NCBI GenBank assembly: GCA_947489325.1
Contig: CANLDA010000005.1
Span: 62,001-126,000, forward strand
DNA: 64,000 nt
Direction: 5' to 3'
Source: an uncultured Paracoccaceae bacterium
GTDB taxonomy: Bacteria; Pseudomonadota; Alphaproteobacteria; Rhodobacterales; Rhodobacteraceae
How positions within the stretch are numbered: the stretch's first letter is position 1; each line of letters starts with the position of its first letter. Shown here one piece after another: positions 2,856 through 61,716 of this stretch. Made by a program: the position numbers and the translations under genes. The notes beneath the pieces were generated by a model. It saw only the letters and a program-made list of their open reading frames with translations. It ran no database searches and was not told where the DNA came from.

Positions 2856-4339
2856 ACAAATTCCCCCTGCACAAACCAGCCGGGGTTTTGCGGTGTGTAA
2901 AACAACCAAAGCCGCCGCCCCTGCGTGGTCTCCACCCGCCAGTAATCGCGCAGGCCAGAACGCCAATTGTCATCCTCAAGCCACCATTCAGGGGCAATGC
3001 GTTCCGGACCCGTGGCGCGGCCCGTGGTTAAGGACATGCGCCGCCAGCGAAACCGTTTGGGCGGATGTGGGCCTGTGGCCGCAATAAGTTCGGGAGGAAA
3101 CAGACACAGCGGTCGTGGATTTGAGCAGGCCCAGCCGCTGGCCGGTTCTGAATAGGCGGCGGGTGCGATGATAAAGCTGCGCTCTGGAATATGGCTGTCA
3201 GCGGTCAGGAAACGCTGAATATTTTCCAGCCTGACCCTTGTGCCGATCCGGGTGATGAGATCCTCCAACGGACCCTTCTGCGCGGCTGAAATATGGGTGA
3301 TTTGCTGGGCGGGCAGGGCCTCAACCTGCGTTGCCTCAAGCCGCAGCTGGTCGATGCCAAAGCCTGCTTCCATCTCGGCCACCCCCCGTTTAAACAGCGG
3401 CAGAATGCGCTGAGGATCGTGCAAAGCGCGTGCTAGACGCAGCTCGATCTCTTGGTGATCCTGATCCACCCGGCGCAATGTGATGGTCAGCACCCGTGCG
3501 CCCATTTCCTGTGTTTTCAATTTGGCGCATAACTGGGTCAGCAGTCGCTCAATTCCCGCCATCACATCGCTGAGAAGGCCAATGGGGTCCGGCAGCGTCA
3601 TCCGCACCCCGTAATGGGGAGGATCAAACAGGGGCGAAATGTCTTCCGGTTGCTGCCCCAAAGCCTGATCCAGCCGCAACAGCACATCCGGCCCAAAACG
3701 GCGGGTCAGCGGCGCCCGCGGTGCGGCAGCAAGATCGCCTACCTTGCGCAGCCCCAATCGGATCAAAGCCGTTGAGGTTTTCTCATCCAGCCGCAAGGCC
3801 GCAACAGGCAGGTCCCGTAGTGCAGGCAGCATGTCACCGGGTGGGGCCTGCCCTTCGCCATGATGCGCCAAGGCCCAAGCCGCCCCGCGCGTACCCGCCA
3901 GACCGATCTGCACCGACAGCCCTGCACGCATCAGACGGGCCCGCATATCCGCCAGCATCCCGTCCTCGCCGCCAAAGAGGTGGCCAGACCCGCTAATATC
4001 AAGCACCAGCCCATCCCGGCCTTCCATCCCCACCCATGGGCAATAGCGCGTGGCCCAGCGGCGCAGCGTTTTTAGAAACTGCTGATCTCTCTGCAGATCA
4101 GCAGGCACCGTTTGCAAACTGGGACAAAAAGCGCGGGCATCGGAATAGGCCATGCCCGGATGCAGGCTTTGCTGCGCGGCATCAATATTGAGGCAATAAA
4201 GTCGATTGGCATTGTTCCGTTTCAGGGTCAGGGCAAAGGGGCCATCACTTGGATACACCCGCAGAACCCGGTCACTCGCCAGGCGGGGAAACCACAATGA
4301 GACGACGCGACGCTGGATCCCACCGAACATGCCAAACAC
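2852..4339 (-). CDS. imuB: ImuB, Y-family DNA polymerase-like mutasome protein
   Basis: Catalytically inactive Y-family homologue that in characterised mutasomes bridges DnaE2, the beta clamp and ImuA. It has 495 residues. The N-terminus (VVSLWFPRLASDRVLR) aligns with the place where active Y-polymerases have their first catalytic Asp, but the acidic residue is absent, as is normal for ImuB. The second palm segment reads GLVLDISGSGHLFGG. The start lies 68 nt inside the imuA reading frame and the stop overlaps dnaE2 by 4 nt, so the three genes form one tightly packed operon. Confidence 0.92.
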   Translation of the reverse strand: MFGMFGGIQRRVVSLWFPRLASDRVLRVYPSDGPFALTLKRNNANRLYCLNIDAAQQSLHPGMAYSDARAFCPSLQTVPADLQRDQQFLKTLRRWATRYCPWVGMEGRDGLVLDISGSGHLFGGEDGMLADMRARLMRAGLSVQIGLAGTRGAAWALAHHGEGQAPPGDMLPALRDLPVAALRLDEKTSTALIRLGLRKVGDLAAAPRAPLTRRFGPDVLLRLDQALGQQPEDISPLFDPPHYGVRMTLPDPIGLLSDVMAGIERLLTQLCAKLKTQEMGARVLTITLRRVDQDHQEIELRLARALHDPQRILPLFKRGVAEMEAGFGIDQLRLEATQVEALPAQQITHISAAQKGPLEDLITRIGTRVRLENIQRFLTADSHIPERSFIIAPAAYSEPASGWACSNPRPLCLFPPELIAATGPHPPKRFRWRRMSLTTGRATGPERIAPEWWLEDDNWRSGLRDYWRVETTQGRRLWLFYTPQNPGWFVQGEFV

Positions 4340-4838
4340 CTAATGTTCCTGATTTGTTCTTAATAAGCTCCCATTTTTGCAGAGTCGAGTCCTGAGAGCT
4401 TGATTTGGAATCAAATACAGGGGCGCACCGCCAACGAGTCTCTGCCGCATTGCTGCCCATACCTTCGGGAATAATCGCCAAGCCCGTGGATTCCCCATCC
4501 CGCGCAGCCAGTTGCAAACGCCGCCCCTCGGTCAAACCCAAGGGCTTGTTAAGCGTCATCACCACCAGCGAAACGGCCCCAGAGCGCAGCGCCTCCTCTG
4601 CCACGGCCAAAGTTTCTGTTTGGTCTTTGGTATTGCACAGCGTCAGATTGGCAGGATTTATGAAGTCGGCGAACCCATTCGGATTAATCTGACGTGGTTC
4701 CCAACTTTCGCGTATCCACATGACATAGCCACCAAGCCGGGCAGCAAGTGCGAAGGCAAAAACAAAGGCCCCAGCCCCGCAAACCTCATGCGTGCGGGTC
4801 GTGGTAGGTGGAAAGAAACGCGGATTAGTCTCGTACAT
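4272..4838 (-). CDS. imuA: ImuA, RecA/SulA-like mutasome subunit
   Basis: First gene of the mutasome operon; ImuA proteins are RecA-like accessory factors for DNA-damage mutagenesis. It has 188 residues with the family core EEALRSGAVSLVV, a following proline-rich turn and the ETRW segment; no Walker A motif is seen. The ATG at 4838 has an in-frame stop four codons upstream and no good ribosome-binding site, so the exact start is unsure. I looked for an alphaproteobacterial LexA box (GTTCN7GTTC) between 4780 and 5034 on both strands and found none, although this operon is SOS-controlled in relatives. Confidence 0.85.
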   Translation of the reverse strand: MYETNPRFFPPTTTRTHEVCGAGAFVFAFALAARLGGYVMWIRESWEPRQINPNGFADFINPANLTLCNTKDQTETLAVAEEALRSGAVSLVVMTLNKPLGLTEGRRLQLAARDGESTGLAIIPEGMGSNAAETRWRCAPVFDSKSSSQDSTLQKWELIKNKSGTLGVWHVRWDPASRRLIVVSPPGE

Positions 4839-5034
4839 ATCTATGGATTATGCATTTGGTGGCAATATTGGGAAGGGCCTATGCCCGGCAAATACGGACC
4901 TTGGCGCAACTGTAGTGAAAGTTCGGTGTATCCCGCATTCCAGTCACCACAAACTGATTAAACATACCATTTATGACAGGCGGTCCGGTGTGGAATTTAG
5001 ATATCCAATACCTCAGCGCCATCTTTAAGATCGT

Positions 5035-6039
5035 TTAGATCGACAGGCGTGCTGCCTGACTGCCGCGTTCGCGGTAGGGGGTGATTTCATAATGTGCGCG
5101 ATAGCATTTTGAAAAATGTGAGGGGCTTGCGAAACCGCAGGCCAGTGCGACATTGATTACGCTCATGTCCGTTTGCATCAACAAGTTACGGGCCTTTTGC
5201 AGGCGCAGTTCCATGTAATAGCGTTTGGGAGAGCGGTTCAGGTATCGGCGAAACAGGCGTTCAAGTTGACGCGTGGACATGCCCACATCTTTGGCCAAAA
5301 TAGAAGGGCTGATTGGCTCTTCGATATTGTTTTCCATCATCTGGATGACTTGTGACAATTTTGGATGGCGCACGCCAATGCGCGTGGGCACGGACAAACG
5401 TTGGGTATCTTGATCGGTGCGGATTGACGAATAAATCAACTGATCCGCCACTGCATTGGCCAGTTCTTCGCCGTGATCATCCGCGATGATTTTCAGCATC
5501 AAATCGATAGAGGCCGTGCCACCCGCGGTCGTGATGCGGTTATTGTCCACTACAAAAACCGATTTGGTGAGCTCGACGTCGTCAAATTCTTCGGCAAAAC
5601 TGTCTTGGTTTTCCCAATGAATGGTGGCTTTTTTGTTGTCCAGCAACCCGGCTTTGGCCATAGTGTAACCTGCAGTACACAGACCACCAATCAACAGACC
5701 TCTGCGCGCCTCACGACGAATCCAATTCAGCAAACGTTTGGTCGTTGCGTGTTGTACCTCAATACCGCCACACAGCATGATCACATCGTCACGGTTCAGT
5801 TCTGCCAGATCAATATCAACCTTGAATTCAGCCCCGGCAGAGCAACGCACGGTGTCCCCACCTTCGCCGGCCAAAACCCATTCATAAAGTTGCTTGTCAG
5901 CCATGCGATTGGCAATCCGCAGACTTTCGACCGCAGCAGAAAAGCACAACAGCGTAAACTGATCCAGTAGAACAAAGACAAAGCGTCTTGGCTTGCCTGC
6001 TTCGACTTCTACTTTTACGATATGATTTTGTAGCGACAT
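5035..6039 (-). CDS. GlxA-family transcriptional regulator (DJ-1/PfpI-like domain plus AraC HTH)
   Basis: A 334-residue regulator. Residues 18-190 form a DJ-1/PfpI-type glutaminase-like sensor (FVLLDQFTLLCFSAAVESLR; GGLCTAGYTMAKAG), and residues about 225-325 form the double helix-turn-helix of AraC proteins (STRQLERLFRRYLNRSP; ALACGFASPSHFSKCYR). This architecture is shared with GbdR, CdhR and SouR, which sense glycine betaine, carnitine or sarcosine, but the ligand here cannot be read from sequence. It is divergent from the DAHP synthase gene with about 140 bp between starts. A distant MttB-family gene (12.6 kb) would fit a quaternary-amine theme, but nothing links the two directly. Confidence 0.88.
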   Translation of the reverse strand: MSLQNHIVKVEVEAGKPRRFVFVLLDQFTLLCFSAAVESLRIANRMADKQLYEWVLAGEGGDTVRCSAGAEFKVDIDLAELNRDDVIMLCGGIEVQHATTKRLLNWIRREARRGLLIGGLCTAGYTMAKAGLLDNKKATIHWENQDSFAEEFDDVELTKSVFVVDNNRITTAGGTASIDLMLKIIADDHGEELANAVADQLIYSSIRTDQDTQRLSVPTRIGVRHPKLSQVIQMMENNIEEPISPSILAKDVGMSTRQLERLFRRYLNRSPKRYYMELRLQKARNLLMQTDMSVINVALACGFASPSHFSKCYRAHYEITPYRERGSQAARLSI

Positions 6040-6179
6040 GTCGGCCTTCTACGTTGCGAGGGGGCTTCGGTGGATAATCACGTCTATCTTTAAGACTTAG
6101 GCGCTTATTTCATATATGGCCCTTGCTCAAGAGCTTTTGTATATTGCACAACGCAACTTGTAAAACCGGAGTGAAGACT

Positions 6180-7547
6180 ATGGCAGAATGGCAAAAATCT
6201 GACTGGCGCAAAAAGCCACGGGTTCAGATGCCTGACTATACGGATGACGCAGCGCTTAAGGCCACAGAAGCCAAGCTAGCAAGCTATCCGCCGCTGGTTT
6301 TTGCCGGTGAGGCACGCAGCCTGAAAGCCAAGCTTGGTGCCGCCTCTCGCGGCGAGGCCTTTTTGTTGCAAGGCGGCGATTGCGCCGAATCCTTTGCACA
6401 GTTCAACGCCGATCATATCCGCGATACCTTCAAGGTGATGCTGCAAATGGCGATGGTATTAACCTATGGTGCAAAGGTTCCTGTGGTTAAAGTGGGCCGT
6501 ATGGCGGGCCAATTTGCTAAGCCACGCAGCGCCCCGGTTGAGGTCGTGGATGGAGTGGAGCTGCCAAGCTATCGCGGTGACATTATTAATGATCTGGATT
6601 TCACATCTGCCTCGCGTATTCCAAACCCTGACAAGATGTTGCAGGCCTATACGCAGGCGGCCGCGACGCTGAACCTGCTGCGTGCATTTTCAACGGGCGG
6701 TTATGCGGATGTGCATCAGGTGCATGCATGGACTTTGGGGTTCACCGAGGGCGAAAAAGCCGCGCGGTATCGCGCGATGGCGACCCGAATCAGCGACACG
6801 CTTGATTTCATGAAAGCCGCCGGTGTGGACAGCGATGGGGCGCACACACTGCGTACTGTTGATTTTTACACCAGCCACGAAGGTTTGTTATTGGAATACG
6901 AAGAGGCGCTGACGCGTCTGGATTCGACTTCTGGCAAATGGCTGGCGGGCTCTGGCCACATGCTGTGGATCGGGGATCGTACACGTCAGCCTGACGGCGC
7001 GCATGTTGAATTCTGCCGTGGCGTGCAAAACCCCATTGGCCTGAAATGTGGTCCTACAACCACTGCCGAAGATCTCAAGGTTCTGATGAACAAGCTGAAC
7101 CCAGAGAATGAGGCGGGCCGCCTGACACTGATTGCGCGCTTTGGTGCGGGCAATGTGGGCGACCATCTGCCACGTCTGATCAAGGCGGTGAAAGAAGAAG
7201 GCGCAAATGTGCTGTGGACTTGTGATCCGATGCACGGCAACACGATCAAATCGTCCACCGGATATAAAACCCGTCCATTCGACAGCGTGCTGCGCGAAGT
7301 GCGTGACTTCTTTGGGGTGCATAAGGCCGAGGGCACCATCCCTGGCGGTGTGCATTTTGAGATGACCGGGCAAGACGTGACTGAATGCACCGGTGGTGTA
7401 CGTGCTGTCAGCGAAGAAGACCTGTCAGATCGCTATCACACCGCGTGTGACCCCCGCCTGAACGCAAGCCAGTCTCTGGAACTTGCCTTTTTGGTGGCCG
7501 AAGAACTGTCCGGTCTGCGCGAAGAACGCCAAGCCCAAGCGGTTTAA
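6180..7547 (+). CDS. Class II 3-deoxy-7-phosphoheptulonate synthase
   Basis: Condenses phosphoenolpyruvate and erythrose 4-phosphate in the first step of the shikimate pathway. 455 residues, the plant/actinobacterial type II form rather than the E. coli AroFGH form. Characteristic blocks are [36 protein letters not shown] and [18 protein letters not shown]. The frame is open upstream to 6123, but ATG 6180 is chosen because GGAGTGAAG sits just before it and [13 protein letters not shown] matches the family start. A strong terminator follows, so it is probably monocistronic. Confidence 0.95.
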
Positions 7548-7570
7548 TCACCCATTAATGAACAATCAAA

Positions 7571-7595
7571 GCCCCGAGAAATCTCGGGGCTTTTT
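7571..7595 (+). terminator. Rho-independent terminator of DAHP synthase gene
   Basis: Perfect 8-bp stem GCCCCGAG/CTCGGGGC closed by AAAT and followed by five T residues, 23 nt after the stop codon. The 219 bases from here to 7814 show no convincing gene or site. Confidence 0.9.
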
Positions 7596-7814
7596 GTTTG
7601 CTTGTTTTAAGCCAAAGCGGTCCTGCAGCCCTTGGCGGATGCTGCGATAGCTGGCTTTGTGTCATGCGTTGCAAAAGGGTGAGGTGCGGAAAAAAGTGAG
7701 GTTTTGCAGCAAATGCGCCAATGCATGATGGTGCGTGGATTGCAGGTATTTTTATCTGTTACGGCCTTTGCAAGTCAAAAGGAGGCTTAGCTGGCGCATT
7801 CCGTTCGTATGGGT

Positions 7815-8162
7815 TTACAATTTCACAGGCTGCCCATGCGGAGTACGAAGATAGGCTTGCTTCCACGCTTCGCATCTTTTCGATATTTCGACCTCAGTCA
7901 GCTTGCCGTGTGTCGTCACCAACGCTTCCAAAGTATCCAATGCCACGGCGTAATAGGTTTCCATATCATCTTGGCGTCCTGCAGCATGAGCTTGAGCTAA
8001 TCCGGCCCCGAAAGCCTCGGACCAGTGGGTTGGCTCGATTGATTTGTTGACAATCAGGGCATCGGCCATGGCAAGTACCTGCGCTTGCCATTCTTGCTCA
8101 AATACAGGCATCCCATCGAGATCCTTGAGCGGTTGTGGCTGGCTAAAACTATCTTGGGGCAA
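7815..8162 (-). CDS. Nitrile hydratase accessory (activator) protein
   Basis: Small protein that assists metal insertion or alpha-subunit maturation of cobalt nitrile hydratase. The longer frame upstream belongs to the beta-subunit region and is not coding in this phase. I place the start at TTG 8162, because GGGAGA lies 6-8 nt upstream, the start falls 14 nt inside the end of the beta-subunit gene, and the resulting 115-residue protein has family features: PVFEQEWQAQVLAMADAL, METYYAVALDTLEALV and the C-terminal WKQAYLRTPHGQPV. Third gene of the alpha-beta-accessory operon. Identity is strong; the TTG start is an inference. Confidence 0.85.
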   Translation of the reverse strand: MPQDSFSQPQPLKDLDGMPVFEQEWQAQVLAMADALIVNKSIEPTHWSEAFGAGLAQAHAAGRQDDMETYYAVALDTLEALVTTHGKLTEVEISKRCEAWKQAYLRTPHGQPVKL

Positions 8163-8811
8163 GGTAACTCTCCCATAAATCGAGGAAAACAACGTCTTTG
8201 CTGTTGGCGGATTCCGGCCAAAGATCTTTCGCTTTGAATGCAACAGTATATAGGTGTTCGGCCACCTCAATCCCCATGGAAACGGCATCAGGAAATAGAT
8301 GCGCCCCATGGTGTGCATGAATTTCTCCAACACGACCACGAACATATCCGGGCAATCGCGTATGGCCGGTCGATGCATTCTGATGCGCAACAATTCTACT
8401 TCCAACAGCAAATTTTGGCGCAACCTCGACGGGCCGGTCAAATCTAGTGGCGCTAGCGCGGTTTGCCGCAATTGCATCTTCGACGCTGATTGAAACAGCT
8501 TCTCCAACGGGTGGCGTGGCGGATTTTCCGGCCGCAAGCTCTTCGATTGTACAAACCTTGGAATCTACCAAGGTGGCCATATCGGTTTCGAGCCAGCTGT
8601 CCAGATATGGTCGCGTCAAATAGTCAGCCGGAATCGACGTTTCCCGGACATGCCGCCACCAGTCGATCGTTATGTCCGGGGCACCGCCTCCAAAGCCCTT
8701 GGAGAGAGCCCATGCACGCGCTTCCCATTCAGAGTGGAAAGGCTCTACCGGTTCCAGAACATCAATTGGGCCGTACCCTTGTTTGCCACCAAGATCATGA
8801 ACGCCGTCCAT
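8149..8811 (-). CDS. nthB: Nitrile hydratase subunit beta
   Basis: Non-catalytic partner of the nitrile-to-amide hydratase. 220 residues with the hallmark N-terminus MDGVHDLGGKQGYGPI and the C-terminal SH3-like barrel (HTRLPGYVRGRVGEI...HLYTVAFKAKDLW). The ATG overlaps the alpha-subunit stop as TGATG, so both subunits are translationally coupled in the usual cobalt-type order alpha-beta-accessory. Confidence 0.95.
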   Translation of the reverse strand: MDGVHDLGGKQGYGPIDVLEPVEPFHSEWEARAWALSKGFGGGAPDITIDWWRHVRETSIPADYLTRPYLDSWLETDMATLVDSKVCTIEELAAGKSATPPVGEAVSISVEDAIAANRASATRFDRPVEVAPKFAVGSRIVAHQNASTGHTRLPGYVRGRVGEIHAHHGAHLFPDAVSMGIEVAEHLYTVAFKAKDLWPESANSKDVVFLDLWESYLAPR

Positions 8812-9461
8812 CAGCTTTCCCCTTCTGTGGATTTACCCAAAATCCGATCAGTTCCAATCATGGAATTCCGCGTAACCAGTTTGACCAATTCTTTTTCACC
8901 TAATTCTTCGGTGTTTGCAGGGCGTTGTGGGATCACCAAATAGCGCAGTTCAGCGGTGCTATCCCAAACCTGAACTTGTATGTCTGTTCCCAGAGAGACG
9001 CCGAATTCCATCAACACTCCGCGCGGATCACGCACAGCGCGGGATCTGTAGGCTGCAGTTTTATACCAATTCGGCGCAATACCAAGAATCGAAAATGGAT
9101 AGCAGGAACACAAGGTACACACGACCAGATTATGGACGGCATCCGTGTTCTCTACTGCCTTCAGATGTCCGGTCGCATCCCCTTCAAAACCAAATTCCTT
9201 GATTGCTTCTGCAGCATCTGCCAGCAAACGTGATTTAAACTCAGGATCGACCCATGATCTGGCGACGACTTGAGCGCCTCGTTTCGGGCCTATTTCTTCA
9301 GAATAGACTTCAACCCAGGAATTGATCGTCTCAGAAGTGGTCAATCCCTTCTCCACCATCAAGCTTTCCAATGCCTTGACCCTCAGAGCAGGTTCAGAGG
9401 GTAAATGGCTATGAAGCTCGCGGTGGATTTCAGATGCCTTTTGGGTGTCAAAGGTTGCCAT
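8811..9461 (-). CDS. nthA: Nitrile hydratase subunit alpha, cobalt type
   Basis: Catalytic subunit converting nitriles to amides. The metal-binding motif is CTLCSC at residues 115-120; Thr in the second position is the sequence mark of cobalt enzymes (iron enzymes have CSLCSC). The cysteines are normally oxidised to sulfinic and sulfenic acids. Residues RGAQVVARSWVDP and PNWYKTAAYRSRAVRDPRG are also family-typical. Strong ribosome-binding site AAAGGAGGA precedes ATG 9461. No amidase, cobalt transporter or regulator gene adjoins the operon, so the amide product must be handled elsewhere. Confidence 0.96.
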   Translation of the reverse strand: MATFDTQKASEIHRELHSHLPSEPALRVKALESLMVEKGLTTSETINSWVEVYSEEIGPKRGAQVVARSWVDPEFKSRLLADAAEAIKEFGFEGDATGHLKAVENTDAVHNLVVCTLCSCYPFSILGIAPNWYKTAAYRSRAVRDPRGVLMEFGVSLGTDIQVQVWDSTAELRYLVIPQRPANTEELGEKELVKLVTRNSMIGTDRILGKSTEGES

Positions 9462-9716
9462 GTGCGTTCTTCCTCCTTTAGGGCAAGCCTAGCAGAGCAT
9501 GATACTGATGTTTAGTATTATTCAGTTTCACTCTGGCGCGCTAAATGATCCCATATTTGCACACTGAACTATTCGTCACGCGTGAAATTACGACCTTGTG
9601 ACATCGATTTTGTCCAACCCCATTCAGATTGACCAACGACGGCTTTCCAGAGGATGGCTAAATTACACAAAGCGGGACGAAGCGATCGTTAACGGGAGCT
9701 TAACCAATACCGGCTT

Positions 9717-9744
9717 TTGCCACTTGGCCGGACCTTGATAATAG
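9717..9744 (+). promoter_or_regulatory. Predicted promoter of the structured-RNA/mini-ORF unit
   Basis: TTGCCA (9717-9722), 16-nt spacer, TAATAG (9739-9744) on the plus strand. It lies immediately before the hairpin-rich stretch beginning at about 9760. The spacing is acceptable for a housekeeping sigma factor; the call rests on the match and position only. Confidence 0.4.
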
Positions 9745-9749
9745 AGATT

Positions 9750-10020
9750 AAGATACATATCCTCAGGGATGGTTGGGAAGCGGCAGGTGCCGTGGGCGAT
9801 GATGCCCAGCCTGACAAGTGCTTAGCCGTGCTATGTGAGCCCCTAGCCGGGGTGAGCTAAGGTTGGTCCTGAGAAACCCGATGACAAATCGGGCAATTTG
9901 AAGGGTGACCAGTCGACAGGCGTCTCTGAGTGATCATAGGAGTTAGCCGAACTGCCGATTTAGGGGCAGTATAAATATACTGAGCTAACTTAGGTAAGCT
10001 CAACCGGTTGGGCGTCGCTA
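9750..10020 (+). ncRNA. Candidate structured RNA or long structured leader
   Basis: About 250 nt with many complementary segments. A closing helix 9762-9768/9867-9873 (CTCAGGG with TCCTGAG, one G-U) encloses hairpins 9781-9792 (CGGC-AGGT-GCCG), 9793-9808 (TGGGC/GCCCA), and a two-part stem 9821-9826/9856-9861 (CTTAGC/GCTAAG) containing CCCC/GGGG at 9840-9852. Downstream are a CCCGAT/ATCGGG hairpin (9877-9893) and a 7-bp helix 9941-9947/9984-9990 (AGTTAGC/GCTAACT) around ACTGCC/GGCAGT (9951-9956/9965-9970). A competing hairpin AGTAT/ATACT (9968-9981) uses part of the same strand, which could form a switch. I do not recognise a known family. It could be an independent RNA or the 5' leader of the mini-ORF at 10033. 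Confidence 0.5.
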
Positions 10021-10032
10021 GGATTTAATCTA

Positions 10033-10128
10033 ATGCGGTTTTCAATCAAGCTGGAGGGTCGAGTTCGCTATGGGGATGTTATCGGAACCATTGCGCTCGT
10101 ACTGACACTTGTAGGTCTTTTCCTGTAA
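10033..10128 (+). CDS. Putative 31-residue hydrophobic membrane peptide
   Basis: ATG to TAA frame of 31 residues. The first half is charged (MRFSIKLEGRVRYGD) and the second half is an uninterrupted hydrophobic run (VIGTIALVLTLVGLFL), enough for one membrane span. AGGA at 10020-10023 is a possible ribosome-binding site with a 9-nt spacer. The frame ends 6 nt before a GC-rich hairpin. The layout (promoter, structured leader, short membrane peptide, hairpin) resembles type I toxin or regulated small-protein loci, but there is no homologue I can name and chance cannot be excluded for so short a frame. Confidence 0.4.
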   Translation: MRFSIKLEGRVRYGDVIGTIALVLTLVGLFL

Positions 10129-10134
10129 GGGTTG

Positions 10135-10154
10135 GGGCGGTCGCAAGACCGCCC
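10135..10154 (+). terminator. GC-rich hairpin closing the mini-ORF unit
   Basis: GGGCGGTC/GACCGCCC, 8 perfect pairs with a GCAA tetraloop, 6 nt after the mini-ORF stop. The downstream sequence (TTCACATATT) is only weakly T-rich, so it may act as a 3' stabilising hairpin rather than a strict intrinsic terminator. Confidence 0.5.
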
Positions 10155-10272
10155 TTCACATATTCAACTCTCAATACTTAGCCCTATTAAACACTCTGGT
10201 CTAAACCTTATCTTTAGTCCAACCCTCGTAGAAAGCAGACGTTTGAGCCTAGTGCAGCATCGGTCAAGTGGG

Positions 10273-10320
10273 CCCCACAGCCAGTTTTCGCGGCACTTAA
10301 TTCCAATGGCTGCTGTGGGG
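10273..10320. repeat. Inverted repeat in the 5' region of the GAF-LuxR gene
   Basis: CCCCACAGC (10273-10281) and GCTGTGGGG (10312-10320) are perfect 9-bp complements separated by 30 nt. They lie inside the 310-base stretch between the hairpin at 10154 and the regulator start at 10465. That stretch happens to be open in the regulator's frame from 10132, but its translation does not look like protein. Possible leader structure or operator; otherwise I see nothing in this interval. Confidence 0.4.
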
Positions 10321-10464
10321 AAGGGGCTGACTTTGCAAAGGGTATTGTGTGCATTGCTGTCAAAAAAATTGCCCCACGATATCGCCGTGATCACAGATAT
10401 CCGCGCACTGGACTCATCTTTTTTCTTTTGTCCGCATCCTGACTCGTTCTATGCTCTGGCGATC

Positions 10465-11427
10465 ATGGGGACGACAAAGCCTGACATACCAAAACACGTT
10501 ATGGACCGCTGGCAGCGGGTGGTCGATCTGATTGCAGATTTGGCCAACGTGCCGGCTGGATTGATCATGCGCACACTTGCGCCGGACCATTTTGTTTTTG
10601 TCACCAGCCGCACGGAAAACAACCCCTATGAGGTGGGGCGTGGGTTTGAGTTGCAACCAAAGCTGTATTGTCAGGGTGTAATCAGCAACGATGGCGAATT
10701 GGTGGTAGAGGACGCCGCTTGTGATCCGCACTGGGTGGATAACCCGGATATGGATCACGGTATGTCTTTTTATATCGGCTATCCGCTTAAATGGCCCGAT
10801 GGTACGCTGTTTGGTACAATCTGTGTGCTGGATAGGAAAAACAACCGCCGTGCACTGCAATTTCGCAATGGATTGTTGGAGTTTTGCAATGTAATTGAGG
10901 CCGATTTGGCCATGTTGGAAGAGGTGGATTTGCGCAAGCGGCTGGAATCCACATTACAAGAAACGCTGGATCAGCTGGAGGCGCGTGTGGAAAAACGCAC
11001 CGATGCGTTGCAAGAGGCCAATGGCGCCCTGCGTGTCTTGGTCAGTCAGATGGAATCGACCCGCGCGGATCACGATGAACAGATGTTGCGCCAGATTAAG
11101 GGTTTTGTGATGCCCCATGTGCAAAAGCTGCGACAGGCGATTTCGCCCGACAGCCCGGCGTTTGCCCATCTGGATTTGTTGGAAAGCAGCTTGAAAAGTA
11201 TTTCATCGGACCTGTCTGACAGCCTGACAAATGCGTTTGAGGTGCTGACGCCAACTGAAATAGAAATCGCGCAAATGATCATGTCAGGGCGCAGCACCAA
11301 AGAGATCGCGCGGATCATGGCGCGCGGCACATCGACGATTGATTTTCATCGCAACAATATTCGCAAGAAACTGGGTGTGACAGATCGTGGATTGAACTTG
11401 CGCACCCATTTGATGTCTTTGTCTTGA
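10465..11427 (+). CDS. GAF-domain LuxR-family transcriptional regulator
   Basis: 320 residues from ATG 10465 (MGTTKPDIPKHVMDRW). Residues about 5-145 form a GAF sensor domain (VVDLIADLANVPAGLIMR; YPLKWPDGTLFGTICVLD); a coiled-coil linker follows (KRLESTLQETLDQLEARVEKRTDAL), then a C-terminal LuxR helix-turn-helix (LTPTEIEIAQMIMSGRSTKEIARIM...STIDFHRNNIRKKLG). The linker resembles those of histidine-kinase-like sensors, but no kinase domain is present. The frame is open upstream to 10132; I chose the internal ATG because the GAF domain begins there, although its ribosome-binding site is weak. Ligand unknown. Confidence 0.85.
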   Translation: MGTTKPDIPKHVMDRWQRVVDLIADLANVPAGLIMRTLAPDHFVFVTSRTENNPYEVGRGFELQPKLYCQGVISNDGELVVEDAACDPHWVDNPDMDHGMSFYIGYPLKWPDGTLFGTICVLDRKNNRRALQFRNGLLEFCNVIEADLAMLEEVDLRKRLESTLQETLDQLEARVEKRTDALQEANGALRVLVSQMESTRADHDEQMLRQIKGFVMPHVQKLRQAISPDSPAFAHLDLLESSLKSISSDLSDSLTNAFEVLTPTEIEIAQMIMSGRSTKEIARIMARGTSTIDFHRNNIRKKLGVTDRGLNLRTHLMSLS

Positions 11428-11433
11428 TATTCG

Positions 11434-11454
11434 ATATGGGGGTAATCCCCATAT
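11434..11454. promoter_or_regulatory. Perfect inverted repeat upstream of the Tat MBL hydrolase gene
   Basis: ATATGGGG-GTAAT-CCCCATAT, 8 bp per arm, 6 nt after the regulator stop; a third half-site (CCCCAT) follows at 11458. No T-run follows, so an operator is more likely than a terminator. The upstream LuxR-type protein is the obvious candidate binder, as an inference from position. Confidence 0.45.
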
Positions 11455-11552
11455 TATCCCCATGTTTTACCGTCATCTGTGATTGCCGCTTGCCGCGTTA
11501 AGCTGATGTTAAGGGCAAACCAATCAGCCCGGCCAAACACGGAGACATAACG

Positions 11553-12548
11553 ATGACAGACAAGAAACTGGATCTGACACCCGCACAGGTGAATGGACAA
11601 CGCGACGAACAGATGGCGCCCGGCCTGTCGCGGCGATCATTCTTCATGGCAGCAGGGGCCAGCGGCTTGGGGGCTGCGGCAACAATGCTGGGTGGTACCC
11701 GTGAAGCCAAAGCGCAATCCACTGATTGGCTGCAACCTGGCAACAACAACCGCGTAATTGGAATGCAAGAGGCCAGCAGCTTTGCCCAAGGTGCTGTCGG
11801 TATTGATTTTTATGGCCATTGCGCGTTTAAAATCACGTCACCCGGCGGAGCCACGATCATGTTTGATCCGTGGCGGGATGATCCCTCTGGTGCGTGGGGA
11901 TTGTGGTTCAAACAAAAGTTCCCGGAAACCTTGGTGGACATCACTATGTCTACCCATACACATTTTGACCACGATGCCATTGATCGCCCGCAATCCACCA
12001 TGGTTCTGGACCGGATGGTGGGCACGTTTGAATTCGCTGATCTGAAGATCACCGGCTATGCGGACAAACACGCCTGTGTGGCGCCTGGTTGGTATCCTTG
12101 GACGGATGCACTTGCAGAATTCGGAGTAGAGGCTTGCCCACCGAACAACCCCGGACACATGGATATGGTGACCTATGTGGTGGAAACTGGTGGCATTCGC
12201 ACGTTGATTTGGGGGGATAACCGTCCTGACCCTGCGGATGGCTTTTGGGATCAAATCGGTGAAATCGACGTTCTCACCCTGCCAGTGGATGGCTCTGAAC
12301 ATATTCTCAGCTATGAGCAAGGCAATGCGTTGGTGGATCGGATCAAGCCCAAGGTGGTCATTCCAACCCATTACCTTAGCGAAACAACCACCTACACGCT
12401 CTCAACCCTTCAGCCTGCGGATGATTGGGTTAAGGGTCAGAAAAGTTTCAAGATGCTGGACAGTGCGTCCTTGTCTCTTGAAGCAGGCGATGTGGCTGGC
12501 ATGGACCGCGAGTTCATGTACTTCGGACATAACGCCCAAACGACCTAA
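11553..12548 (+). CDS. Tat-exported metallo-beta-lactamase-fold hydrolase
   Basis: 331 residues. The N-terminus has a twin-arginine signal (SRRSFFM, Arg27-Arg28, then a hydrophobic stretch ending near EAKAQS), so the folded, metal-loaded protein should be exported to the periplasm. The metal motif is THTHFDHDA with His135, His137, Asp139 and His140, followed by NNPGHMD and VIPTHYL, which supply further ligands. It resembles the UlaG-like/YtnP branch of MBL proteins; the substrate is unknown. It lies 125 bp behind the GAF-LuxR gene on the same strand and ends at a strong terminator. Confidence 0.85.
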   Translation: MTDKKLDLTPAQVNGQRDEQMAPGLSRRSFFMAAGASGLGAAATMLGGTREAKAQSTDWLQPGNNNRVIGMQEASSFAQGAVGIDFYGHCAFKITSPGGATIMFDPWRDDPSGAWGLWFKQKFPETLVDITMSTHTHFDHDAIDRPQSTMVLDRMVGTFEFADLKITGYADKHACVAPGWYPWTDALAEFGVEACPPNNPGHMDMVTYVVETGGIRTLIWGDNRPDPADGFWDQIGEIDVLTLPVDGSEHILSYEQGNALVDRIKPKVVIPTHYLSETTTYTLSTLQPADDWVKGQKSFKMLDSASLSLEAGDVAGMDREFMYFGHNAQTT

Positions 12549-12612
12549 GGGTCGTCTTTCACAGTCCGGACAGGGATGCATCCGGGCTGTGTTTCAACCA
12601 CTCACTGGAAAC

Positions 12613-12638
12613 GGGGGCGTTTTACGCCCCCTTTTTTT
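12613..12638 (+). terminator. Rho-independent terminator
   Basis: GGGGGCGT-TTT-ACGCCCCC followed by seven T residues. It ends the MBL hydrolase transcript just before the convergent mttB-like gene. Confidence 0.93.
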
Positions 12639-12647
12639 GTGCTGCGA

Positions 12648-14186
12648 TCACGCGGGTAAATGGATTTTGAATTTCTCACGAAGCGCTTGATCTAATATCG
12701 GGTCAAACCGCGCAGCAGAGCGTTGCGACAGGATATCCTCTTTGCGCGCAACGGCCTTTTCGATTAGGTCAGGCTTGCCAATTTCCGCCCATTCTTTAGG
12801 TGAGGTTCGGTCTCCAAGTGCAGGATAAACATAATCTTTTTGCATTCGGTTAAGAGTCTGATCTGTGCCCAGATAATGGCCGGGACCACCAAGGCAAACC
12901 TCGCGCATTTGATCCAATGCAAGGGTTTCATCGTCCACTTCGATCCCGCGGACGCATCGCAAGGCATGGCCAATCAGATCATCAGACAGGATGAGGGATT
13001 CATGACAGAACCCAAGCAAGGATGCATGCATTCCGGCCGCTTCATACACCATGTTCAACCCAGATAAACCGGCCATGACATTAGAACACATGGCTTCCCA
13101 ACCGGCCTGCATGTCAGGCAACTTGGCATCTGCAATACCCCCGACTGCGCCACCGGGCAGGCCATAGAATTTATGCATTTGCGCGCAGCCTGCACTCAAC
13201 AAGGCCTGCTCGCCCGACCCACCAGTCATAGCGCCTGTGCGCAGATCCAGACCAAAGGGCCAAGTGCCAAAAATCGCAGGGTGTCCGGGTTTTACGGCGT
13301 TTACATAGACCAAACCGGCAAGGCATTCGGCGCTAGCTTGAACGATGGCTCCGGCAATGGTCGATGGCGCAGTGGCTCCGGCCATACCCGCAGATAGCAG
13401 CAGGACAGGCATCCCACCTTTGATGCATTCCTCCATCACTTCGCAGGATTCCGTGGCGAATTTCATCGGCGGTACAACAAAACAGTTGGAGTTGCTGACA
13501 AACGGACGTTCGCGCCATTTGTCCTCTCCGCCAGCGATCATATGGAGCATTTCCAGCGCCGGTTTGACATAGCTGGGATCGGTGAAGGAGGTGCCGATGT
13601 GTTTCTTGGTGCCGGATACACAGCCATAGACGGTGTTGAGATCCATCTCAAAGTTATCAGAGATATCGCGACACACCATTGGGCGTTGAACAAAGTGGAT
13701 ATTGTCAAGCTGATCACAAATGCGCGCGGCATCGTGCAAATCCTGCAAGGTGCTGTCGCGATATTCGCGGCCATGCACATCCACCATATGCACCGCAGCG
13801 CCAGCGGTGCCAAAATGCACGCGATTGCCCGAAAGGATCAGATCGTTTGCCGGATCGCGGCCGCATAGGGTGATGGATGTGTTGGATTTCGCAATTGCGT
13901 CTTCAACAACGGCGCGCGGGAACCGAAGGCGCCCGTCATCCCCCAATATCGCACCTGCACCAACCATATAGTCAATGCCGCTTTGGGGGGCATCGGCAAG
14001 ACCGATGGTTTCCAGTGCTTCAAGCGCGGCGTCGTGGATTTTTTCGACTTGGGTTTGTGTTAGCGGCTTATATGCGCCGCCTTCCATGCCCGGAGTGATC
14101 GAGCGAAGTTCATCGGTGACCGGGGCGACACGGGCTGCGCGGCGGGCGGAGCGGCCGCCGGAACGGCGAGTAGCAGGTGAAGTCAT
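12648..14186 (-). CDS. Trimethylamine methyltransferase family protein (MttB superfamily, non-pyrrolysine)
   Basis: 512 residues with family blocks PGMEGGAYKPLTQTQVEKIHDAALE at the start, FGTAGAAVHMVD, GGSGEQALLSAGCAQMHKFYG and QAGWEAMCSNVMAG. Pyrrolysine MttB enzymes have an in-frame amber codon; here the frame is continuous, placing it with MtgB/MtpB-type corrinoid-dependent demethylases of glycine betaine or other quaternary amines. The substrate cannot be told from sequence. No corrinoid protein (MttC) or reductive activase is nearby. A CAGGAAA ribosome-binding site precedes ATG 14186. Upstream on the same strand are a 30-residue micro-ORF and an aminotransferase gene. Confidence 0.88.
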   Translation of the reverse strand: MTSPATRRSGGRSARRAARVAPVTDELRSITPGMEGGAYKPLTQTQVEKIHDAALEALETIGLADAPQSGIDYMVGAGAILGDDGRLRFPRAVVEDAIAKSNTSITLCGRDPANDLILSGNRVHFGTAGAAVHMVDVHGREYRDSTLQDLHDAARICDQLDNIHFVQRPMVCRDISDNFEMDLNTVYGCVSGTKKHIGTSFTDPSYVKPALEMLHMIAGGEDKWRERPFVSNSNCFVVPPMKFATESCEVMEECIKGGMPVLLLSAGMAGATAPSTIAGAIVQASAECLAGLVYVNAVKPGHPAIFGTWPFGLDLRTGAMTGGSGEQALLSAGCAQMHKFYGLPGGAVGGIADAKLPDMQAGWEAMCSNVMAGLSGLNMVYEAAGMHASLLGFCHESLILSDDLIGHALRCVRGIEVDDETLALDQMREVCLGGPGHYLGTDQTLNRMQKDYVYPALGDRTSPKEWAEIGKPDLIEKAVARKEDILSQRSAARFDPILDQALREKFKIHLPA

Positions 14187-14205
14187 GTGTGTATTTCCTG
14201 TCTGA

Positions 14206-14354
14206 ATGATCCAATATTACGAGGTTCAGACAGACTGCGGGCGCCCCCGCGCGGCACGGCCACGTTCGGCGCCGATCGTGATGATCACAAGCTGTATTTT
14301 CCAGCGACAGGTGTTCATGGCGTCTCCTTGTTGCGAAACGATGTATTGGATCAT
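14206..14354. repeat. 11-bp inverted repeat flanking the mttB leader micro-ORF
   Basis: Arms 14206-14216 (ATGATCCAATA) and 14344-14354 (TATTGGATCAT) are perfect complements. In the minus-strand transcript the first arm lies just upstream of the micro-ORF and the second lies between its stop and the mttB ribosome-binding site, so folding would loop out the micro-ORF. Confidence 0.6.
14226..14318 (-). CDS. Micro-ORF in the mttB-like leader (30 residues)
   Basis: ATG 14318 to TGA 14226, preceded by AAGGAG with a 5-nt spacer, a better ribosome-binding site than most genes here. The product begins MNTCRWKIQLVIITIG and ends in an Arg/Gly/Ala-rich tail. The stop lies 39 nt before the mttB-like start. 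The ORF sits exactly between the arms of an 11-bp inverted repeat whose downstream arm is close to the mttB ribosome-binding site. This could be a leader peptide controlling the downstream gene or an independent small protein. I recognise no homologue. Confidence 0.5.
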   Translation of the reverse strand: MNTCRWKIQLVIITIGAERGRAARGRPQSV

Positions 14355-14365
14355 ACAAGGATTCT

Positions 14366-14393
14366 GCGACAAAAGCGACAAAGTGTCGTTTTT
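14366..14393. promoter_or_regulatory. Repeated GCGACAAA motif upstream of the mttB leader
   Basis: GCGACAAA occurs at 14366-14373 and again at 14375-14382, followed by the inverted half TGTCG at 14384-14388 (CGACA-AAG-TGTCG) and five T residues. Tandem half-sites 9 bp apart suggest a regulator site upstream of the mttB unit. As a plus-strand terminator it would have no gene to serve. Confidence 0.35.
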
Positions 14394-14429
14394 ACCGCGC
14401 CTCTGGCACTCTTTTGCGGGCGCGGTAAA
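14391..14429 (-). other. 11-bp hairpin after the aminotransferase gene
   Basis: TTTACCGCGCC (14391-14401) and GGCGCGGTAAA (14419-14429) pair perfectly over a 17-nt loop, 18 nt after the aminotransferase stop. There is no U-tract on the minus strand, so it may be a 3'-end stabiliser or weak terminator separating the aminotransferase from the mttB unit. Confidence 0.45.
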
Positions 14430-14447
14430 GTACTTGCTATAACTGGG

Positions 14448-15623
14448 TTAGTGTTTTGCCAACGAAATAGCAAAATCACGCAATGTTTCCAACGCTTTGG
14501 TGAAACGCTCATCATCAATGGTCATGGCCACACGGATGTGCCCCGCCGCTGCTTGACCAAAGCTTTCGCCGGGCATGACCGCAATTAAGTGTTCATCCAA
14601 CAGACGATTGGCAAACTCTTCTCCACTTAACCCAGTGGCGCGGATGTCCAGCATGACATACATCGCCCCTTGGGCCGGAATGACCCCAACGGTATTTTGG
14701 GCTGCAAAAATCTGCTGTGTGATGTCGCGACGCCGCCGAAAAGGGGCCGCAACCTTTTCCTCAAGACCGTCCCCTTGCGCCAAGGCGAAATCAGCAGCAT
14801 CCTGAACAAACCCTGCCACGCCATAGGTGGTGTGTGTGGCCAGATTGATCAGATGATCAACCACATCTTTTGGGCCGATGATCCAACCGATACGGCTGCC
14901 GGTCATGGCGTGAGATTTGGACATGGATCCAACCACAAGCGTGCGTTCTGCCATGTCGGGCAGGGCGCGTGGACTGATATGTTCGCCTTCCCAAATCTGA
15001 GTGTCATAAACCTCGTCCGAGATCAGCCAAAGATCGTGTTCACGGCACACTTCGGCGATTCCCTCGAGCGTTTCGCGTGAATAGACAGTGCCCGTAGGGT
15101 TGTTTGGCGTATTCACCAACAAAGACGCCGCCCCCGCAGCGTGCTTGGCAATATCTTCGGCGCGCGGCTGAAAGGCATCTTCGGGATGAGTTTGAATGGC
15201 AACCGGTTCTGCCCCAACCCCGCGCAACGTGCCGGGGTAGGTGGCATAATAAGGGTCAAGATACAGCGCACGATCCCCTTGTTCACAGGTGACAAGATGC
15301 GCCGCATATAGCGCGGCCTGTCCGCCGGGGGTGATCATCACATTCTCAAAACTTGTCGATACACCTGTGCGATCCTGAACACGTGCCGCTACCCGTTCGC
15401 GCAGTGCCTGCGTTCCGGGCACCATGGCATAACCTGTGTGTCCGCCCTTTGCGGCCTTATCCATCGCATCAAGAATCACAGGATCGGTACGAATGTCATG
15501 TTCGCCAATGGTCAGTTCCGTAACCGGTTGCCCATCAGCAACCATCTGACGTGCGCGATAAAATACATCCCACCCGTCTGATCCCCCACCGTTCAGCGTG
15601 GTAATCCGCTTTGAAACTTGCAT
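14448..15623 (-). CDS. Pyridoxal-phosphate-dependent aminotransferase (class I/II)
   Basis: 391 residues from ATG 15623 (MQVSKRITTLNGGG), chosen over an upstream in-frame start because GAAGGAGAGAG lies just before it. Fold-type I features: the cofactor-lysine region VVGSMSKSHAMTGSRIGW, the NTPNNPTG loop, and DEVYD. The family transfers amino groups between amino acids and 2-oxo acids, typically aspartate or aromatic substrates, but the specific substrate is unclear. It is on the same strand as the mttB-like gene, about 130 bp upstream of that gene's leader micro-ORF and separated from it by a hairpin, so co-transcription is uncertain. Confidence 0.88.
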   Translation of the reverse strand: MQVSKRITTLNGGGSDGWDVFYRARQMVADGQPVTELTIGEHDIRTDPVILDAMDKAAKGGHTGYAMVPGTQALRERVAARVQDRTGVSTSFENVMITPGGQAALYAAHLVTCEQGDRALYLDPYYATYPGTLRGVGAEPVAIQTHPEDAFQPRAEDIAKHAAGAASLLVNTPNNPTGTVYSRETLEGIAEVCREHDLWLISDEVYDTQIWEGEHISPRALPDMAERTLVVGSMSKSHAMTGSRIGWIIGPKDVVDHLINLATHTTYGVAGFVQDAADFALAQGDGLEEKVAAPFRRRRDITQQIFAAQNTVGVIPAQGAMYVMLDIRATGLSGEEFANRLLDEHLIAVMPGESFGQAAAGHIRVAMTIDDERFTKALETLRDFAISLAKH

Positions 15624-15690
15624 GGCTCTCTCCTTCAATTTGGGCCAGAGGGCCATGACGGCGTTTTTACGTCAATGCGGAATTCGCCCC

Positions 15691-16176
15691 TTACATGCTG
15701 TTTTCGTCAATATCATTGGCACTATCGCCCATCAGGTATCGTGGGCCGGGGCCTTTTGCGTGGATACGATCCTTTGGATTATAGAGCTTGCATGTCTTCA
15801 GCGACAGACATCCGCACCCAATGCAGCCATCCAGTTTCTCGCGCAGGGCCTCCATCTGGGCAATCCGAGCATCCAGATCGTGGCGAAAACTTTGCGATAT
15901 TTTTTCCCAGTCTGATTTGGTCGGGGTGCGATTATCCGGCAGACACGACAAGGCAGACTTAATCTGCGCCAGACTGAACCCCATGGTTTGGGAAATCATC
16001 ACAAACGACAGGCGCCGAATGTCCGCACGTTCATAGCGGCGCTGCCCGCTGTCGGTACGAAAAGGATGCACCAAACCTTCCTCACCATAGAATCGAATGG
16101 CCGAAGGCGCGAGACCGGTGCGTTCGGCAACCTGTCCAATTGTCAGGCCGCGTTTTGTCAACAGTCTGGTTTTCAT
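15691..16176 (-). CDS. soxR: Redox-sensitive MerR-family activator SoxR
   Basis: 161 residues. An N-terminal MerR helix-turn-helix (LTIGQVAERTGLAPSAIRFYGEEGLVHP) is followed by a dimerisation helix and the [2Fe-2S] motif with Cys118, Cys121, Cys123 and Cys129, the exact C-x2-C-x-C-x5-C spacing of SoxR. Outside enteric bacteria SoxR usually responds to redox-cycling compounds and controls a few nearby genes directly rather than soxS. The divergent glyoxalase-like gene with a SoxR-type promoter is the likely target. Confidence 0.93.
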   Translation of the reverse strand: MKTRLLTKRGLTIGQVAERTGLAPSAIRFYGEEGLVHPFRTDSGQRRYERADIRRLSFVMISQTMGFSLAQIKSALSCLPDNRTPTKSDWEKISQSFRHDLDARIAQMEALREKLDGCIGCGCLSLKTCKLYNPKDRIHAKGPGPRYLMGDSANDIDENSM

Positions 16177-16189
16177 GTAAACTTTCCCA

Positions 16190-16220
16190 TTGAGTTAAAG
16201 TTAACTTAAGAGATTATACT
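16190..16220 (+). promoter_or_regulatory. SoxR-type promoter with 19-bp spacer
   Basis: TTGAGT (16190-16195), a 19-bp spacer, then TATACT (16215-16220) on the plus strand. Overlong 19-bp spacers are the defining feature of MerR-family-activated promoters. The spacer contains the palindrome AAGTTAACTT (16198-16207), the same core as the E. coli soxS operator. It reads toward the VOC/glyoxalase gene and sits in the soxR leader, so it may also mediate autoregulation. Confidence 0.8.
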
Positions 16221-16255
16221 GTTTTCATCGAGTTTTCAAACTGAAAGGGATGCTC

Positions 16256-16630
16256 ATGAAGCTGGAACATATCAATGTCACCGTGCCCGACCCCAAAGGT
16301 ACCGCGTCGATCTTGCAGGATTTGTTTGATTGGCACATCCGTTGGGAGGGCGAGGCGCTGGACGATGGCTATACCGTTCATGTGGGGGATGCGGGCACCT
16401 ATCTTGCGCTTTATGCCCCGGCGCATGAAGTCACGGGAGCTGAGGCGCGGTATCGTCGCACTGCAGGGCTTAACCATATCGGTATCGTGGTGGACAACAT
16501 TCAGGATACAGAAAACCGTGTGCGCAATGCAGGATACACGCCGCACAATCACGCCGATTATGAACCGGGCACGCGGTTTTATTTCGATGGTCCTGACGGC
16601 ATCGAATACGAGGTGGTCAGCTATGCCTGA
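16256..16630 (+). CDS. VOC-family (glyoxalase/bleomycin-resistance-like) protein
   Basis: 124 residues with two beta-alpha-beta-beta-beta modules: KLEHINVTVPDPKGTASILQD and LNHIGIVVDNIQDTENRVR, ending GPDGIEYEVVSY. The metal-site residues of the vicinal-oxygen-chelate fold are plausible (His7, Glu near the end of module 2), but the substrate is unknown. ATG 16256 is preferred over 16250 because GAAAGGG gives a proper 6-nt spacer to it. Divergent from soxR and behind a SoxR-type promoter, so probably a redox- or electrophile-stress gene. Confidence 0.8.
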   Translation: MKLEHINVTVPDPKGTASILQDLFDWHIRWEGEALDDGYTVHVGDAGTYLALYAPAHEVTGAEARYRRTAGLNHIGIVVDNIQDTENRVRNAGYTPHNHADYEPGTRFYFDGPDGIEYEVVSYA

Positions 16631-16717
16631 TAGGCGGCCCTCTGCGCGCATGTCTCTCTGCGCAGGCGTCACCTTACTGGCTTGACCCACTGGGGGCGGC
16701 TGCCTATGGTTGCCCCC

Positions 16718-16762
16718 ATGAAACCGATATGCACCATTATTATCTGCTGCATTACCGCCTAA
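16718..16762 (+). CDS. Putative Cys/Ile-rich leader peptide of cysS-cimA
   Basis: A 14-residue frame, MKPICTIIICCITA, 86 nt before cysS. Three of 14 residues are Cys (two adjacent TGC codons) and five are Ile. The genes that follow make cysteinyl-tRNA and citramalate, the latter a precursor of isoleucine. This enrichment matches classic attenuation logic. Against it: there is no clear ribosome-binding site (an in-frame ATG at 16706 is no better), and the hairpin downstream (GGCGGGC 16771-16777 with GCCCGCC 16814-16820) has no U-tract. A hairpin GGGGGC/GCCCCC overlaps the start region. Confidence 0.35.
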   Translation: MKPICTIIICCITA

Positions 16763-61709: not shown

Positions 61710-61716
61710 GAGATTT

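Follow-up and report, generated by a model that had tools for sequence, protein, structure and literature searches.

Natural RNA oligomers with a function are reported to be uncommon, and the leader of Moloney murine leukemia virus (MoMuLV) provides a precedent in which dimerization drives a shift in pairing register (PMC7357161, in the part available). For the bacterial RNAs OLE and GOLLD, homo-oligomers have been argued from loop pairs that join neighboring bases, and symmetric kissing loops have been shown by cryogenic electron microscopy (PMC12286853, in the part available). The Rhodobacterales RNA motifs described in the available portions of PMC8632094 and PMC2864571 lie near cco operons, cysS, and metK. 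Here, we describe a conserved element at positions 9668-10261 of a 64,000-nucleotide (nt) stretch of DNA from an uncultured Paracoccaceae bacterium (GCA_947489325.1, contig CANLDA010000005.1, positions 62,001 to 126,000; hereafter, the window). It consists of a structured RNA (approximately 9770-10154), a 31-codon open reading frame (ORF; 10033-10128), and a closing hairpin, and all features given below lie on the plus strand unless stated otherwise. Seventeen homologues were found, all from Rhodobacterales or from the window's own family, which makes 18 distinct copies with that of the window. From their comparison, we consider it quite probable that the element represents a previously undescribed RNA family that carries its own membrane peptide and works as a homodimer.

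Two sites in the aligned copies keep their symmetry while their sequence changes. The first, loop A (hexamer TGATCA, 9931-9936), is a predicted homodimer kissing site that occurs as five different hexamers, TGATCA (11 copies), CGGCCG (3), TGGCCA (2), TGTACA (1), and TAGCTA (1), and is a perfect palindrome in 18/18 copies. All 54 of its alignment cells pair, 11 of them with changes on both sides, and none of 500 shuffles reached its paired percentage, its number of changed cells, or its covariation score. The second, hairpin B (9998-10013; 16 nt, GCTCAACCGGTTGGGC, with one G-U), is a predicted second dimer site whose eight pairs are standard (G-U included) in all 18 copies, six of them with double changes. 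Its four-base center is palindromic throughout (CCGG in 14 copies, GCGC in 2, CATG in 1, and GGCC in 1), as is its six-base center in 17 copies, the other one, L030, having a G-U. Among 263 usable runs of six alignment columns, only those at loop A and hairpin B were palindromic in at least 90% of the rows with at least three sequence versions, and when these columns were left out of tree building, at least six changes had to be assumed for each hexamer. Because the innermost pair of such a site joins neighboring bases, which is impossible within one molecule, this is good evidence for a homodimer. The element thus combines symmetric loops with base changes that preserve self-complementarity at adjacent bases, as expected of a homo-oligomeric RNA, and we infer on good evolutionary evidence that the RNA works as a homodimer. 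Some results weigh against so strong a reading: the double-change pairs of loop A were matched by 10 of 500 shuffles and its pair types by 479, the four-base center of hairpin B needs only three changes, and most forks of the tree are unresolved.

Hairpin B also overlaps the helices that lead to the start codon. Its 5′ strand is common with the 3′ strand of hairpin H1 (GAGCT/AGCTC, 9982-10001; 95.6% of cells paired), and its 3′ strand is common with the hairpin over the ribosome-binding site (RBS hairpin; 10006-10018 paired with 10035-10047), which encloses the Shine-Dalgarno sequence (AGGA, 10020-10023) and the ATG. The RBS hairpin is supported by covariation, with 87.0% of cells paired versus 33-44% when the strands were slid against each other and with seven double-change pairs; the divergent copy L058, which is misaligned around the start codon, was retained in these counts. 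Given the common strands, H1, hairpin B, and the RBS hairpin are three competing helices, each of them conserved. In L058, the common strand changes from GCTC to GCCC, and its partners on both sides follow. A start site under structural control is probable, and the suggestion of a riboregulated membrane peptide, made in an initial annotation from the sequence alone, gains support from this conserved, covarying hairpin over the Shine-Dalgarno sequence and start codon. That annotation mentioned neither of the two self-complementary sites nor, having no relatives to draw on, the slot of defence genes described below.

We calculated monomer and dimer structures over a region of approximately 80 nt in the 18 copies. 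In the monomer, hairpin B had a probability of at most 0.007 in 17 copies and 0.037 in L052, and H1 a probability of at least 0.89 in 17 copies (0.999 in that of the window) and 0.22 in L052; the calculated energy of the dimer was below that of two monomers in all 18 copies. Hairpin B being rare in the monomer and the dimer lower in energy, a conserved helix that is unfavorable in one molecule would become favorable in two. We propose that a self-contained cassette of approximately 0.4-0.6 kb makes a structured RNA of approximately 380 nt and that this RNA codes for a membrane peptide of 31 residues with a single span. As a monomer, the RNA would fold with H1 and the RBS hairpin and be poorly translated; when two copies pair at loop A and hairpin B, one strand each would leave H1 and the RBS hairpin, and ribosome access to the start codon would be altered. 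That the dimer would be the more actively translated form is a guess as to direction. The calculations also hold points against such a switch. Any 16-nt self-complementary RNA favors the duplex in an energy calculation of this kind, hairpin B was wholly intermolecular in just 11 of 18 dimer co-folds, and 10 of the 17 co-folds scored (L058 left out) kept the inner start-codon stem closed in whole or in part; among the seven with an open start stem, L052 was open as a monomer too. The models thus do not uniformly predict that the dimer opens the start site. Access to the start codon that depends on dimerization is plausible, and we put forward dimer-gated translation tentatively, as somewhat doubtful. 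No bacterial mRNA is known to us in which homodimerization of the transcript gates its translation, and none turned up in a literature search over a partial collection.

The ORF (10033-10128) encodes the hydrophobic peptide MRFSIKLEGRVRYGDVIGTIALVLTLVGLFL and is present in 18/18 copies, with a length of 31 amino acids (aa) in 17 and of 35 aa in L058, the most divergent copy. The mini-ORF with a hydrophobic run reported in the initial annotation is thus real, with a best 17-residue hydropathy of 2.32 starting at residue 15 in the window copy. The corresponding maximum is 1.9-2.6 and starts at residue 12-15 in 17 copies (1.46 in L049), and the first twelve residues carry a net charge of at least +2 in every copy. 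Over the 136 pairs of the 17 copies with a 31-aa peptide, the mean numbers of differences at the three codon positions were 10.9, 6.0, and 16.4, and the ratio of nonsynonymous to synonymous differences (pN/pS) was 0.43 in frame versus 0.97 and 1.62 in the other two frames; pN/pS was 0.06 between the window and its closest relative, L042, and at most 0.62 among the 13 pairs listed. Judged by its codons, the mini-ORF is under purifying selection, a result that refutes the alternative of an ncRNA with the ORF incidental. No convincing family was found for the peptide in Pfam, PHROGs, or PADLOC when the 18 copies were compared. A resemblance to FixQ (2/18 members, best E 0.14) was unconvincing, as were the best matches in PHROGs (E 0.051) and to ZorA in PADLOC (E 0.047), with one member each.

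The dense folding that had been noted in the window sequence is above chance. Positions 9750-10157 fold at −154.2 kcal/mol versus −137.7 (SD 6.1) for shuffles (z −2.71, with 1 of 100 shuffles equally good), which is a modest excess, and the comparative evidence is far stronger. RNAalifold on 11 rows gave 64 pairs, 20 of them with double changes, although some of the long-range pairs look spurious. Five named helices, assessed over 18 rows, had 93.4% of their cells paired versus 41-53% when slid by one to three columns, with nine double-change pairs. From the 5′ side, hairpin P1 (AGTGC/GTGCT, loop TTAGCC; 9817-9832) had 98.9% of cells paired and two double-change pairs. In a further helix (9821-9861), GCTAAG (9856-9861) pairs either with TAGC at 9844-9847, as predicted by RNAalifold, or with CTTAGC at 9821-9826, as judged by eye, the alignment being unsure here. 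In helix P3 (TTGGTC/GACCAG, 9863-9912), both sides of pair 53-107 are changed in 5 of 11 rows. Hairpin A, which presents loop A on its stem CTCT/GGAG (9924-9942), had 83.3% of cells paired and two double-change pairs, and hairpin PC (ACTGCC/GGCAGT, 9951-9970) had 93.3%. The mutually exclusive helices proposed earlier near 9951-9981 do exist by eye, GGCAGT (9965-9970) pairing with ACTGCC (9951-9956) or CAGTAT (9967-9972) with ATACTG (9977-9982); the latter, PC′, is partly conserved by eye without covariation and is not claimed, and the competing helices that covariation does back lie slightly further on, at 9982-10047. Several copies (L028, L032, and L026), but not that of the window, appear by eye to have an extra hairpin of the kind GGAGGT...ACCACC near the 5′ end upstream of P1, which is not part of the pair counts.

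The description of the RNA as unrecognized also held: no Rfam 15 family reached its gathering threshold on the window element or in the 17 homologue loci. Four matches fell on the window element, every one below threshold. One of these candidates, LOOT RNA, matched weakly over its full length in the window (14.1 bits, E 7.3) and not at all in eight homologue loci at E ≤ 10, and is rejected. A sub-threshold match to PrrB_RsmZ overlaps the element in L010 (17.6 of 44 bits), and a cspA thermoregulator-like match lies at 4473-4812 of L028 (58.4 bits, under the gathering score of 78). No published account of the element was found in a literature search, nor in the available portions of PMC8632094 or PMC2864571.

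Relatives with compensatory base changes were found in Rhodobacterales by several routes. Blastn over 295 genomes of the family matched five, namely the window's own genome, two true copies that share the upstream RNA, the frame, and the closing hairpin with the window, and two chance matches in coding sequence as judged by eye (L005 and L006). A three-row peptide profile matched 13 of 394 family genomes at E ≤ 0.05, six of them convincingly (own included); of its 15 matches, we accepted six (E up to 7.6e-6), the other nine having E of at least 4.4e-4 and covering short segments within frames of 52-900 aa. With a 21-nt RNA pattern in which both loop A and hairpin B are left out, a search of one genome per species found 21 stretches, nine of them true copies and all nine from Rhodobacterales; the other 12 had no match to a covariance model, R1 (best 9.3 bits), built on a 135-position core from 11 sequences. 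R1 found copies in 9 of 390 genomes of the order (8 of 140 genera), in 7 of 394 of the family (own included), in 3 of 21 of a genus here called g373, and in 2 of 62 of another, g56; in the class, it found 1 of 240, the window's own genome, already counted in the searches of order and family. Searches over more than 40 genomes were run with stricter filters, with which weak matches can be lost. The distribution is patchy, and each genome in which the RNA model found a copy gave one match, the window's own included. No copy was found in the plasmid records, phage records, or viral contigs searched, where the matches were one in a plasmid at E 5 and one in the viral contig L054, a chance match within a phage gene.

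The genomic setting of most copies is a slot downstream of an EttA-type ABC-F gene, which lies upstream on the same strand in 14/18 copies and ends 126-700 nt away, the distance being taken to a point 60 nt ahead of the core. In genus g373, the slot, bounded by ettA on one side and by conserved genes on the right, could be seen in 20 of 21 genomes (contig L103 breaks off inside the first gene on the right, and the 21st genome is 56% complete). Three of these 20 slots hold the element (695-728 bp) and 17 other cargo (767-2159 bp), mostly one gene, and the RNA is absent from all 17 other-cargo regions. In an alignment, L065 and L102 share sequence up to approximately 60 nt beyond the ettA stop codon and once more starting approximately 15 nt after the closing hairpin, and these shared edges imply that the element is swapped as one cassette. 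When a single frame from each slot was submitted to PADLOC, in L112 the first of two and elsewhere the longest, 11 of the 17 matched at E ≤ 0.01, six of them below 1e-20: PDC-S14 in four (approximately 1e-108 to 1e-110), PD-Lambda-5_A (6e-70), and PDC-S33/RelA-SpoT (4e-56). Weaker matches were to a TIR effector in three frames (5e-10 to 2e-5) and to PDC-S21/SIR2-like in two (2e-8 and 2e-9), and six frames (L104, L109, L111, L112, L114, and L115) had no PADLOC match. As controls, 0 of 10 window proteins matched, and 1 of 10 proteins adjoining the slot in L104 (10 of 12 listed frames), a match at 1.4e-5 that we read as one to the helix-turn-helix part of a regulator. Judged by its gene content, the g373 slot (L063-L065 and L102-L118) is a hotspot for single cassettes, among which candidate defence genes are frequent. 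A limited literature search found no paper on a slot downstream of ettA.

Several observations limit what the slot can say about the function of the element. The association with defence genes is found in g373, is weak in g56, and does not extend to the window copy: four copies (window, L042, L049, and L058) are not at ettA, and the ettA slot of the window's own genome holds no copy. In g56, where 30 of 62 slots were viewed, two with the element, at least 10 of the other 28 are nearly empty, with a response-regulator-like gene within approximately 300 nt. The PDC models of PADLOC are candidates, not all of them known to be tested systems. About five of the viewed g56 slots hold what we read as a RAYT-like transposase, and two of six cargo proteins from five slots match PADLOC (DarT-like, 5e-10; protease-like, 2e-6). 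The DarT-like gene, after ettA in L130, is directly followed by a frame of 220 aa for which PADLOC gave no match, and the two may form a toxin-antitoxin pair.

The window copy lies elsewhere. Blastn of window positions 1-20,000 against the 8-kb locus of L042 gave a single match of 594 bp at 82% identity, the whole cassette (9668-10261), and because the two loci share this block only, the cassette also moves to other places. The earlier statement that the stretch contains no other gene was borne out: the neighbors are genes for nitrile hydratase alpha (8811-9461, minus strand) and beta, on the strand opposite to the element, and a gene with a LuxR-type domain. A 431-codon frame with a TTG start at 10132, within the closing hairpin, is probably an over-long reading of the latter gene. 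The promoter and the GCAA-capped hairpin of the initial annotation are likewise present. The former, TTGATA-17-TATCCT (9735-9763), is sigma-70-like with 9/12 consensus matches; 3% of shuffles have one equally good, and a level of 5% or less is reached in just 4/18 copies, the window included, so that weak promoters in most copies also count against the proposed unit. Positions 9462-10300 contain two sigma-70-like sites versus 0.7 (SD 0.7) in shuffles. The other one, TTGAGC-18-TATATT, lies inside the element on the minus strand (10003-9974), and its −35 hexamer TTGAGC is found in 6/18 copies of the alignment. The closing hairpin, GGGCGGTC-GCAA-GACCGCCC (10135-10154), is conserved, with 93.7% of cells paired, and is likely a terminator or transcript end; no T-run follows it, and a scan of 9462-10300 found no terminator-like site. 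Elsewhere in the window, Rfam matched SorX (singlet oxygen resistance RNA) at 61642-61716 on the minus strand (47.2 bits, threshold 46.6) and PYLIS_3 at 13037-13135 on the minus strand (42.4 bits) within an MTTB gene (12648-14186). Because this gene is open over 512 codons without any stop being read, the PYLIS_3 match is probably coding similarity rather than a pyrrolysine signal.

Comparison of the copies establishes the fold of the RNA and its coding frame, the start-site hairpin, and the symmetry that two sites retain through changes of sequence. For the further step, a homodimeric RNA controlling a functional membrane peptide, with the direction of the switch and a role in defence set aside, we regard the balance as slightly unfavorable. 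The slot of most copies suggests that the peptide could be a toxin-like membrane effector and the unit probably an anti-phage module of the abortive-infection type, or a stress module, on a cassette moving among Rhodobacterales chromosomes; for a toxin-like or defence role as such, the genomic evidence leaves the scales level. The most specific form of the proposal, a minimal RNA-plus-peptide defence unit whose transcript would sense its own pairing state, two copies kissing through two evolving palindromes and the dimer rearranging the start hairpin, so that upon infection the released peptide would harm the membrane of its own cell, is unlikely.

The alternative that survives best is an ordinary type I toxin-antitoxin system, in which a structured leader delays or blocks translation of a membrane toxin and an antisense RNA that we have not seen is the antitoxin. 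A small basic-plus-hydrophobic peptide under selection, a ribosome site that comparison shows occluded in RNA structure, patchy single copies, and a slot for defence genes would all suit such a system, and the minus-strand sigma-70-like match (10003-9974) could serve an antisense RNA; yet the −35 hexamer of this match is kept in a minority of copies (6/18), and type I leaders are not known to conserve two self-complementary loops. We consider this reading possible and not likely. It is a little less likely that the RNA itself is the active part, an OLE-like homodimeric ncRNA to which the peptide is accessory, for instance by holding the RNA at the membrane. That would account for the conservation of both sequence and structure over the upstream approximately 200 nt, far from the ribosome site, and for a loop A approximately 100 nt from the start codon, and OLE is itself dimeric and membrane-localized (PMC12286853, in the part available); however, the ORF is kept in every copy and is under selection, and it is at the start site of this ORF that the competing helices meet. 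A riboswitch-like leader, in which the upstream domain binds a metabolite or protein, the H1, B, and RBS helices form the expression platform, and the symmetric loops dimerize the aptamer, is improbable: a conserved domain with mutually exclusive, covarying helices is what it predicts, but the RNA precedes only its own short ORF in the 18 copies and travels with it to different loci. Lastly, loop A (18/18) and the center of hairpin B (four bases in 18/18, six in 17/18) are also perfect palindromes as DNA, but binding sites of a symmetric protein are a highly improbable explanation, because a sequence-reading protein would hardly tolerate a hexamer that varies in most of its bases (TGATCA, CGGCCG, TAGCTA) and both palindromes lie in stem-loops with covarying stems.

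With a probably homodimeric RNA that may control its own membrane peptide, the element offers a small, simple case, with contact points marked by evolution, in a field where the purpose of RNA oligomers is largely open. The RNA itself carries its likely output, a single short ORF, its genomic slot suggests a biological role, and swapping the self-complementary loops would make the purpose of dimerization directly testable. It also indicates that defence-rich slots can hold cargo without an annotatable protein, which gene-based surveys would miss. The element shares the ettA slot, in sister species, with single-gene anti-phage cassettes and candidates (PDC-S14, PDC-S33, PD-Lambda-5, TIR, and SIR2 models); these encode proteins (frames of 289-430 aa as cut), whereas the element is an RNA with a 31-aa peptide that has no convincing PADLOC match. 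Like type I toxin mRNAs of the Hok, TisB, and AapA kind, it is chromosomal and patchy, and a long structured leader masking the ribosome site precedes its short hydrophobic peptide; it differs from them in its two conserved self-complementary loops, a larger conserved RNA, and a mostly ettA-side slot, and an antisense antitoxin was not found for it. With the dimer initiation site (DIS) of human immunodeficiency virus and with MoMuLV, it has in common a palindrome in a hairpin loop and, as predicted here, a dimer that shifts pairing between competing helices (PMC7357161, in the part available); sequence and host are unrelated, and the shift would here meet a bacterial ribosome site. OLE, GOLLD, and ROOL are likewise structured bacterial RNAs with symmetric loops that switch between palindromes and are read as intermolecular pairs, and OLE forms a dimer localized to the membrane (PMC12286853, in the part available). 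The Rfam models of these three gave no gathering-threshold match on the element or in the 17 homologue loci and were not among the sub-threshold matches of the window, and on the tests made the element is no member of the OLE family. It differs from all three in being shorter, in belonging to Rhodobacterales, and in encoding its own membrane peptide behind an occluded start site.
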